A DNA stretch of 34,082 bases from a virus, in the IMG/VR virus record IMGVR_UViG_3300044729_003848, positions 1 to 34,082 of that record. One strand, 5' to 3'. The position numbers and the translations under genes are program-made. Below the pieces are notes generated by a model. That model saw only the letters and a program-made list of their open reading frames with translations, ran no database searches and was not told the DNA's origin. Shown here one piece after another: positions 25,825 to 29,164 of this stretch. The stretch's first letter is position 1. Each line of letters starts with the position of its first letter.

Positions 25825-25861
25825 AACGATTCATGATTGCCCAAAATAACAGAAAGTCAAA
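25825..25861 (-). promoter_or_regulatory. Promoter P2 (TTTGACTTTC element)
   Basis: TTTGACTTTC lies at 25861-25852 on the minus strand, 37 nt before the ATG at 25824. It overlaps the TGA stop of the sigma-factor gene. The TTGACT core is a -35-like hexamer. No good -10 is visible; TCATGA lies at the expected place. The last bases and the start codon, TCGTTATGAAT, are identical to those at the 30864 gene. Confidence 0.68.
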
Positions 25862-26465
25862 TAAAATCGAAAGAATTTTTGCTAAGGATCTTATTTTTCA
25901 AAAAAGTCCTAGCTTTTTCATGTAGATTGATAGCTGTTTGAGTGCTAATGTTTAATTTTTTAGCTATAGTATTCCAAGTAGCTGGCTTACAGGATCCAGA
26001 AAAATATCTTAATCTATAAACTTCGTTGACTCTTGAATCTTTAAAAGAGCATAGCAAAGAGGAAAGGTAGTCATAAAGTTCTGTGTTTTTATCGGTAGTA
26101 AAAAGTATATTTTTATTAGAAATAATTTCCGAGTCGAAGTTATCGTTCAAGAAATGTTTTCTGTTATAATTAAGGTAGTTCAGAAAATGATACCTGACGC
26201 AATTACAAAACCAAGTAGAAAATTTAGTTTTTTGTTTTTGATCAAACGAATGTATTGCTTTGTAAAGAATAAAGTCTTTTTCGAATTTAATCTCTTCTTT
26301 GCTCATTCCCATTTTGTTTAAAGAGGTAGAATATTTTCTTGCTACCGAGAAATAAAAATTATCGTAAGAGCTAGATAATTTTTCGAAACTGTCTTCACAG
26401 TTATGGTTTTTAACATTGATTGCTAAATAAGCATCAGGATCTTTAATTGTCTTTTCTTTTATCAT
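25857..26465 (-). CDS. Phage RNA polymerase sigma factor, sigma-70 family
   Basis: The 202-residue protein keeps sigma region 2: ILYKAIHSFDQKQKTKFSTW leads into CNCVRYHFLNYLNYNRK, the -10-binding and core-binding helices (AxxxFDxxxGxxFSTYxxxxIR in bacteria). It ends in a region 4 helix-turn-helix: TWNTIAKKLNISTQTAINLH then EKARTFLK. Regions 1 and 3 are short or absent, as in T4 gp55-type late factors and ECF sigmas. It would direct host RNA polymerase to phage promoters, perhaps the virion genes or the TTTGACTT elements noted here. There is no such element directly before its ATG. A structured RNA-like stretch of 477 nt lies upstream with no terminator between. An AAAGGG lies about 9 nt before the ATG. 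Confidence 0.8.
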   Translation of the reverse strand: MIKEKTIKDPDAYLAINVKNHNCEDSFEKLSSSYDNFYFSVARKYSTSLNKMGMSKEEIKFEKDFILYKAIHSFDQKQKTKFSTWFCNCVRYHFLNYLNYNRKHFLNDNFDSEIISNKNILFTTDKNTELYDYLSSLLCSFKDSRVNEVYRLRYFSGSCKPATWNTIAKKLNISTQTAINLHEKARTFLKNKILSKNSFDFI

Positions 26466-26942
26466 AAAATTGCCCTTTCGCTCTAAGTTTCCAAAGAGAC
26501 TTTCCTTTCTACCATCGCCTTATAACTTTTCCTTGAGTTGGCTACGAAGCAATAGCAGGTCAACTTAGACTTTATATCTAAGTAATTATTCACCCAAAAG
26601 TACCCGAATCAGTCATCGCATCTCCGGCTTTAGTAAGTCCGTTTAGCTATCGACTACCTTTGGCTATTTTAATCTGTTGTTTTCGCAGTGACTTTTCTTC
26701 AGACAGCTACCATCGCCTTTTCCTTTGAGAGGAACGAAGTTTCTAGCAGTTTTAAATAGGACTCATTTACGACGCGGCCTCTCCCGAACACACGCTGGAA
26801 TTTCTTCCAATTTCCTATTGTCTTTTGACGGGCTTGTTGATCTATTACGATTTTTAAAATAAGGAGTCTATCCTTAAGTGAGCGTGGTTTCGCTCGGCTA
26901 CCTCTGCACAACAGACTGACCTTATCTTTGACGCGTTATTTT
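26466..26942 (-). ncRNA. Candidate large structured RNA (or long structured leader of the sigma gene)
   Basis: This 477-nt gene-free stretch is richer in GC than its surroundings and full of short perfect hairpins. The stems are 26880-26884/26891-26895, 26860-26865/26871-26876, 26795-26800/26805-26810 and 26563-26569/26577-26583. The third has a GAAA tetraloop when read on the minus strand, and its outer pair is G-U on that strand but a mismatch on the plus strand, which favours minus-strand RNA. Two arms repeat the word CTACCATCGCCTT (26509-26521 and 26707-26719). A promoter-like element sits at its upstream end. I could not match it to tRNA, tmRNA, RNase P RNA or a group I intron. ROOL- or GOLLD-type phage RNAs are possible relatives. 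Confidence 0.6.
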
Positions 26943-26952
26943 GAAAGTCAAA
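26915..26952 (-). promoter_or_regulatory. Promoter P3 (TTTGACTTTC element) ahead of the structured RNA
   Basis: TTTGACTTTC at 26952-26943 on the minus strand begins right after the TAA stop of the upstream gene. It is part of a 17-nt word (AAAATAATTTGACTTTC) found identically before the 30864 gene. By analogy with the other copies, transcription would begin near 26915, with AGATAA in the -10 region. No protein start lies there, so the product is expected to be the RNA-like stretch, possibly read through into the sigma gene. Confidence 0.62.
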
Positions 26953-27360
26953 TTATTTTTTCAAAGATTCTGGGGAAGCCTTCGAAGCTATGTAAATTAA
27001 ATTTTTTAAATCTTTTTCTGTGATGTTCATTGAGTCGCATTTTTCGCTTTCGCTTCCTAGAGCCTGGCACATTTCGTTTATGATCGAAGAAATCCCTGCC
27101 GCCAATAGCCCGCTGATTTCTAAAGTTTGAGAAAAAGACTCCAAAGGTTTTACCAAAACCCAATAATCTTCCCCGTTCAAAGAACAAGAGCGAAGGACGT
27201 TAGCTTTCTCCATTTCTTTCAAGGCGCAAATAAGCGCGGCATTCTCCGCGTTCTCATCGTCAGACACGAGAAAAATTTCTCTTCTATTTTTATTTACATT
27301 AAAACAAGCCTTTTTGTTAAAGTATTCATTAAGAAGCTGATAACATTCGATAACGTTCAT
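26953..27360 (-). CDS. Hypothetical protein
   Basis: I do not recognise this 135-residue protein. It begins MNVIECYQLLNEYFNKKACF, then has basic NVNKNRREIFLVSDDENAEN and an Ala-rich helix (NAALICALKEMEKANVLRSC). DYWVLVKPLESFSQTLEISG is followed by a small/hydrophobic stretch (LLAAGISSIINEMC), which is too short and polar for a sure membrane helix. It reads divergently from the dUTPase gene. A perfect TATAAT lies 3 nt before the ATG. Its stop is followed at once by promoter P3. Confidence 0.6.
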   Translation of the reverse strand: MNVIECYQLLNEYFNKKACFNVNKNRREIFLVSDDENAENAALICALKEMEKANVLRSCSLNGEDYWVLVKPLESFSQTLEISGLLAAGISSIINEMCQALGSESEKCDSMNITEKDLKNLIYIASKASPESLKK

Positions 27361-28877: not shown

Positions 28878-28880
28878 AAT

Positions 28881-28907
28881 AAAAAAGGCGCGGTTTTTGG
28901 CCGCGCC
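28881..28907 (-). terminator. Hairpin terminator between convergent genes
   Basis: GGCGCGG (28887-28893) pairs with CCGCGCC (28901-28907), a 7-bp GC-only stem with a 7-nt loop. Read on the minus strand it is followed by six T (28886-28881), a canonical terminator for the small basic-protein gene at 28915-29088. On the plus strand the following sequence (GTGTTGTTT) is only weakly T-rich, so it may partly stop the plus-strand unit too. Confidence 0.85.
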
Positions 28908-28914
28908 GTGTTGT

Positions 28915-29088
28915 TTACTTGCCCTTCTTCGAGGAGCCAGAGCTGCCTGAACTTCCCGGAGGCGAAGGCTTGCCTACATTGCCTGTCTTCTTAATTGCTC
29001 TCTTTGCAGATGCAGGCGCAGTTGCTGTTGGTGCTGTAGACTTGGTCTTACTAGTTGATGTCGTGGTCTTAGCTGTCTTATTCATCAT
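28915..29088 (-). CDS. Small Lys/Ser/Thr/Ala-rich basic protein (57 residues)
   Basis: Reading the minus strand from ATGATG at 29088 gives 57 codons and a TAA at 28917. The first half is KTAKTTTSTSKTKSTAPTAT, the middle PASAKRAIKKTGNVGKPSPP, and the end a Gly-Ser repeat followed by KKGK. It is highly basic, with no hydrophobic core, like the tails of histone H1-like or DNA-condensing proteins. Support for it being real: the canonical minus-strand terminator just after the stop, a distinctly high GC content for this window, and little sense in the competing plus-strand frame. Function is inferred from composition only; it might bind phage DNA or RNA. Confidence 0.68.
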   Translation of the reverse strand: MMNKTAKTTTSTSKTKSTAPTATAPASAKRAIKKTGNVGKPSPPGSSGSSGSSKKGK

Positions 29089-29127
29089 TTTTATTCTAGA
29101 GACAGTCTCAAAAAAATCTATAAAAAA

Positions 29128-29164
29128 TTTGACTTAATAAAAAAAACTTCATCATTGATACATC
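29128..29164 (+). promoter_or_regulatory. Promoter P4 (TTTGACTT element)
   Basis: TTTGACTT at 29128-29135 starts 37 nt before the ATG of the HNH endonuclease gene, the same spacing as at 25824 and 30864. It shares AATTTGACTT with the other copies but lacks the final TC. The -10 region is CATTGA/TTGATA, not a good consensus. No ribosome binding site lies before the ATG. Confidence 0.62.

Follow-up and report, generated by a model that had tools for sequence, protein, structure and literature searches.

The largest gap between genes in the window, i.e., in the whole stretch of 34,082 nucleotides of the virus record IMGVR_UViG_3300044729_003848 analysed here, almost certainly harbors a structured RNA. 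Its bounds were refined to a segment of 410 nt on the minus strand, which starts near position 26918 and ends near position 26509 (26509-26918), and for which 13 homologues and covariation but no Rfam match and no shared open frame were found. As judged from sequence comparison, the gap probably encodes a stand-alone non-coding phage RNA of approximately 410 nt, which would be ROOL/GOLLD-like in its action. An earlier note on this DNA, made from the letters of the window, had described the gap as a candidate for a large structured RNA and had named covariation among homologues as the support to look for. Such covariation exists and, together with the 13 homologues, it turns the candidate into a well-founded RNA, which could in addition be assigned to the minus strand and to a length of about 410 nt. 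With regard to the two readings offered at that time, the large structured RNA is strongly supported, whereas membership in the ROOL/GOLLD group is not and the case for a leader of the sigma gene has become weaker.

The gap spans positions 26466-26952 (487 nt) and is the sole inter-gene gap of more than 300 nt in the window. The next largest one comprises 287 nt (28878-29164) and precedes a gene encoding an HNH endonuclease. With a GC content of 0.42 vs. 0.353 for the window, the gap ranges at the 95th percentile among stretches of 410 nt. Besides the lack of genes and the elevated GC content, the earlier note had listed a hairpin with a GAAA tetraloop, a duplicated internal element and a copy of a promoter element at which the gap starts. 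All of these observations hold: the hairpin is present at 26796-26809 on the minus strand, the duplicated element consists of 100% identical copies of 13 nt, and TTGACTTT is found at 26944-26951 on the minus strand.

Upstream of the RNA lies a gene for a conserved phage protein of 135 aa (26953-27360, minus strand) with relatives in A7, for which neither Pfam nor PHROG searches gave a match. The C-terminal ITEKDLKNLIYIASK segment of this protein is very conserved, and its gene adjoins the RNA, a kinase gene or both across the phage group. Downstream follows the gene of a sigma factor of 202 aa (25857-26465, minus strand; PHROG RNA polymerase sigma factor, E 2e-9). Since genes for a DnaB-type helicase and for UvsX are also present in the window, the phage is probably T4-like, and the source can be described as an uncultured freshwater phage of this type. 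A search of 50,697 deposited phage records with the sigma and the 135-aa protein revealed no close relative, and one sigma match with 25% identity was obtained. The parts of the gap outside the RNA are the promoter, which occupies the outermost ~30 nt on the 5' side, and the ribosome-binding region of the sigma gene at the 3' side. The latter (26466-26498, minus strand) includes the Shine-Dalgarno region and a hairpin with a GAAA loop (26481-26498, recognized by eye), is located outside the conserved RNA and shows 22-50% identity between subgroups.

A search of IMG/VR with the sigma protein yielded the locus L002 together with its copies, with 85% identity retained in the gap, and the loci L013, L094, L212, and L218 were added by pattern, protein and profile searches. 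A wider sigma alignment led to 51 loci, among which the RNA profile matched L279, L270, L273, L280, L277/L278, L266, and L281 (E 7e-22 to 6e-9). The 13 distinct homologues are all found in uncultured phages and measure 378-425 nt, with one RNA of 475 nt. A covariance model of 127 positions of the first half of the RNA, termed R1, scored 13 of 13 members with E 1e-29 to 1e-16, which is a proof of consistency and not a discovery, as the model was built from these members. Applied to the loci and contigs, R1 gave no other confident match and no confident second copy, and in a search of 299 genomes of one phylum, run without a positive control, no match was obtained. A pattern of the RNA core hit seven stretches in 84,980 prokaryote genomes, none of them convincing. 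Within the phage group itself, L216/L272, L263, and L267 possess the neighboring genes in the same order, with no RNA between them. An RNA on the plus strand was discarded: its folding z-score is -0.8, and homologues, promoter and helices all read on the minus strand.

It is hardly conceivable that a small protein is what is conserved in the gap. The window does contain an open TTG ORF of 70 codons (26699-26911, minus strand), but every member has stop codons in each of its frames, the longest open stretches (27-73 codons) lie in different frames and the substitutions follow the base pairs. A coding region was thus rejected with no frame open across the family. The earlier note had regarded conservation of a reading frame as an argument against an RNA; it was looked for and is absent, so that the RNA reading stands. 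The combination expected of a large structured phage ncRNA, namely covarying secondary structure without coding conservation, is present.

Seven helices, designated P1, P4, P7, P8, P9, P11, and P12, are kept by compensatory changes. In MAFFT alignments based on sequence only, 96.8% of the base-pair cells of P8 and P9 are paired and the covariation score amounts to 0.603. When the partner strand was slid by 1-3 columns, the score was 0.09-0.26, and none of 500 shuffles reached 0.603. Inclusion of P4 resulted in 90.2% paired cells and a score of 0.548. For the whole predicted fold of five close relatives, 93.7% of the cells are paired and 24 pairs are changed on both sides, compared with 11.3 in shuffled and 0-6 in slid controls. 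MAFFT failed to align P7 over all members, and P1, P7, P11, and P12 were therefore judged over the full family by comparison of own and cross pairing: strands of the same genome pair at 98-100%, strands combined with the partners of other genomes at 41-53%. For all hand-picked helices and all members the respective values are 0.97-1.00 and 0.41-0.77, whereby the own value is biased towards pairing by the choice of strands and the cross value represents the fair control for sequence similarity.

All helices described in the following are located on the minus strand. The 5' strand of P1 (UCUGUUG, 26909-26915) lies right after the predicted start site and its 3' strand (CAACAGA, 26673-26679), likewise assigned by own and cross pairing, closes the first half of the RNA; the 13 genomes contain 13 different helices at this position, and pairing is kept (own 98%, cross 53%). 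In the hairpin P4 (AAGGA/UCCUU, 26861-26875) six of seven pairs are changed on both sides, with just 80% of the cells paired. Helix P7 (AUAGGA/UCCUAU, 26756-26818; own 98%, cross 45%, 10 distinct helices) encloses the hairpins P8 and P9. P8 (UGGAA-GAAA-UUCCA, 26796-26809) has a GNRA loop in the subgroup of the window and 95% paired cells, and P9 (26772-26795), which is characterized by a conserved UUCGGGA loop region, has 98.5%; compensatory changes affect three of five pairs in each of them. Helix P11 (CCAAAGGUA/UACUUUUGG, 26594-26663) encloses the conserved core AGCUAAACGGACU..CUAAAGCCGGAGAUGCGAUGACUGA and is represented by 11 distinct helices (own 100%, cross 50%), and eight of its 15 pairs are changed on both sides in the fold of the five close relatives. 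Hairpin P12 (26563-26583) occurs as seven distinct helices with compensatory pairs (own 100%, cross 41%). P5, P6 and the inner portions of P10 and P13 gained no covariation support. A long-range stem between the promoter region and the sigma start, suggested by RNAalifold, was dropped, since its pairs are disrupted and one of its arms falls within the promoter.

No unusual folding is seen for the complete 487 nt (z -1.5). After trimming, the RNA folds better than shuffled sequences in the window (z -2.8), in L002 (-2.7) and in L094 (-3.7), which does not apply to most of the other members, and the minimum free energy is no better than that of shuffles in several members (L212, -0.66; L218, +0.29; L270, -0.59). 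As single-sequence folding is not significant for most of the distant members, thermodynamics were not relied on.

The RNA is composed of two halves of about 200 nt each, of which the first is closed by P1 and holds P4 and P7-P9, and the second holds P11 and P12. Both halves terminate in an A-rich CUCAAAGGAAAA element and a phage-specific 11-mer. Repeat comparison located the first copy of this internal repeat (CUGCUAGAAAC...CUCAAAGGAAAAGGCGAUGGUAG) at 26707-26749, with its end near nt 200 of the RNA, and the second copy at 26509-26558, the 3' end of the RNA, both on the minus strand. Within them, a 13-nt element at 26509-26521 and 26707-26719 is 100% identical, with a distance of exactly 198 nt. 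These two copies and one match with two mismatches are all matches present in the window, and shuffled sequences contain 0.34 on average and never three. The last 11 nt of both copies are identical within each of the 12 genomes tested, and across the family they fall into seven sequence types which are 41% identical to one another (59% average difference). A third close copy or a complementary site of the 11-mer was found neither in the window nor in the 174-kb contig of L002 nor in four other contigs. This pair of identical tags, which vary together, is the most unusual feature of the RNA.

Both copies of the motif in the window form pairs with a nearby CUGCUA strand, but such local pairing alone does not obviously account for the identity of 11 nt in two distant copies. 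We infer from the sequences that both copies share a partner, which may be a second molecule of the same RNA or a factor acting in trans. Because both motifs change together between phages, they can be read as paired docking sites, which would bind a second copy of the RNA or one trans-acting partner; a role in docking or self-assembly is put forward tentatively. The A-rich element of each copy (CUCAAAGGAAAAGG and GAGGAAAAAGG in relatives) is similar to a Shine-Dalgarno sequence, and a contact with the ribosome would be a speculative possibility.

In L261 (1905-2370), L262 (1455-1915) and L274 (1945-2395) the same site is occupied by RNAs of a second class with a length of approximately 410-460 nt, which can be aligned with each other. 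A profile of this class 2 detected a fourth copy in L282 (607-1001, minus strand; E 8e-35), which lies on the opposite strand between the gene of a dUTPase and another gene, i.e., in an opposite, divergent operon. RNAalifold analysis of the four sequences, performed without controls, revealed 25 pairs changed on both sides. Moreover, a AAAGGAAA-like element was recognized by eye twice in each class-2 RNA, with a short motif behind it that is shared within the genome. An Rfam scan of three of the sequences gave no match. The RNAs of class 2 resemble those of class 1 in size, in their occurrence in the same phage group, in their position (three of four at the same site) and in the promoter upstream, but they possess a different helix set and are detected neither by the class-1 profile nor by R1. 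On this basis class 2 looks unrelated to class 1. A further-reaching proposal describes the RNA as a molecule with two halves that assembles with itself or docks to a partner, its two end motifs being kept identical to each other but drifting between phages. The RNA of each phage would then recognize only itself or its own partner, and an unrelated class with the same logic of duplicated motifs could occupy its site; in this complete form the proposal is unlikely.

The predicted promoter of the RNA (26924-26951, minus strand) is composed of TTGACT (26946-26951), a spacer of 16 nt and AAAGAT (26924-26929). In a scan of the 13 genomes, the best promoter-like site in ten of them shows a TTG box, a spacer of 16-18 nt and a -10 box which ends 6-9 nt before the 5' strand of P1. 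The -10 box is weak in several cases, one of which is the window, and other or weak sites were picked in L218, L273, and L280. The element TTGACTTT occurs seven times in the window, compared with 3.5 expected occurrences, which is weak as a count; in relatives, the layout TTGACTTT-N16-CATAAT, with a CATAAT-like box about 16 nt further on, recurs before genes. The T4-type late promoter TATAAATA showed no excess over chance in the window. The RNA would hence be transcribed from a host-type promoter with the 5' strand of P1 as putative start site, and transcription may read through into the downstream kinase and sigma genes. An intrinsic terminator after the RNA was sought in the window and none was found, so that the RNA may be merely part of an operon mRNA.

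In a less probable alternative, the RNA functions in cis as a long 5' leader of the operon with the kinase and sigma genes, and its fold controls the next gene (sigma here, the kinase elsewhere) in the manner of a very large riboswitch or an autoregulatory leader. In agreement with a leader, 13 of 13 class-1 members are located upstream of the operon on the same strand. In relatives devoid of the RNA, the corresponding position immediately in front of the kinase gene has kept a promoter, and in the window and L002 a hairpin is situated just before the ribosome-binding site of the sigma gene, which adds to the lack of a terminator. The gene next to the RNA is that of the sigma factor or of the kinase, both from the same operon throughout class 1. 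In the subgroup of the window, the sigma gene follows the RNA. In seven genomes (L279, L270, L273, L280, L277, L266, and L281) a gene for a deoxynucleotide-monophosphate kinase (dNMP kinase) lies in between, and L218 has approximately 330 nt of non-coding DNA between RNA and sigma gene. Against a leader, the next gene differs, its distance varies from ~45 to more than 300 nt, and the stretch from the RNA to the start codon is unconserved between subgroups (22-50% identity). A promoter-like site, TTGATT-16-CATATT, was recognized by eye between RNA and sigma gene in L218, and the class-2 RNA of L282, apparently unrelated to class 1, belongs to the opposite operon. The extra non-coding DNA of L218 (8531-8850, minus strand, ~320 nt) also contains a repeated ACGGAACCYUAACGAAA element.

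The intervening kinase gene or non-coding DNA and the relatives without the RNA indicate an optional module before the operon and not specifically a sigma leader, and the structured sigma-gene leader of about 450 nt considered in the earlier note has lost weight accordingly. A stand-alone RNA appears more likely than a cis-acting leader. Mechanistically, it would most likely serve a structural role on its own in the course of infection, similarly to ROOL and GOLLD.

Few large structured RNAs are known from phages. The RNA described here adds a family with strong comparative support, derived from phages without a close match among the deposited phage records mentioned above. Its gene context is defined and simple, and phages of the same group which carry the genes but lack the RNA represent natural controls. 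The motifs, which are identical within a genome and change between genomes, make it possible to test directly whether pairing takes place within a molecule, between molecules or in trans, and the motif pair is of relevance for the question of the purpose of ROOL/GOLLD-type RNAs.

Comparison with Rfam 15 revealed no family at the gathering score in the whole window, no match at E<=10 in the window region and L212, and none at E<=2 in five distant members; HEARO was covered by these searches and gave no match. ARAGORN and Rfam also confirmed the statement of the earlier note that the gap contains no tRNA, tmRNA, RNase P RNA or group I intron. With respect to Rfam 15 the RNA constitutes a new structured RNA family. 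A catalogue of structured viral RNAs at the scale of IMG/VR has reportedly been published, and the RNA may be contained therein without a name. That it is a divergent member of a known family of large RNAs (ROOL, GOLLD, RNase P, group I intron, HEARO) is very improbable in view of the Rfam results, even if its size, the phage origin, the lake metagenomes, the GNRA loops and the two-part architecture resemble GOLLD and ROOL in general terms.

ROOL (rumen-originating, ornate, large) and GOLLD are described as phage-encoded, large and ornate RNAs which form RNA-only cages, and ROOL assembles into a homo-oligomeric nanocage (PMC12286853). Like ROOL, the RNA of the window is a large structured non-coding phage RNA without a long ORF and with several GNRA-like loops. 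It differs in that there is no match to the Rfam covariance model of ROOL and in its length of ~410 nt, compared with 659 nt for the solved ROOL (PMC12286853). ROOL is often located near tRNA islands, whereas ARAGORN found no tRNA in the window, and the text consulted on ROOL (PMC12286853) makes no mention of two halves that share identical 3' motifs. With GOLLD, the RNA shares the origin as a large phage RNA from aquatic metagenomes and the subdomains of differing conservation. The Rfam model of GOLLD with its universally conserved 3' region gave no match, and at often more than 800 nt (PMC12286853) GOLLD is twice as large; it is frequently found near tRNAs, in a gene context different from that of the tRNA-free window. 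The membership in the ROOL/GOLLD group proposed in the earlier note is thus excluded for both families by the model test. Nevertheless, ROOL and GOLLD are the closest kind of RNA known, and by analogy the RNA of the window may work like them.
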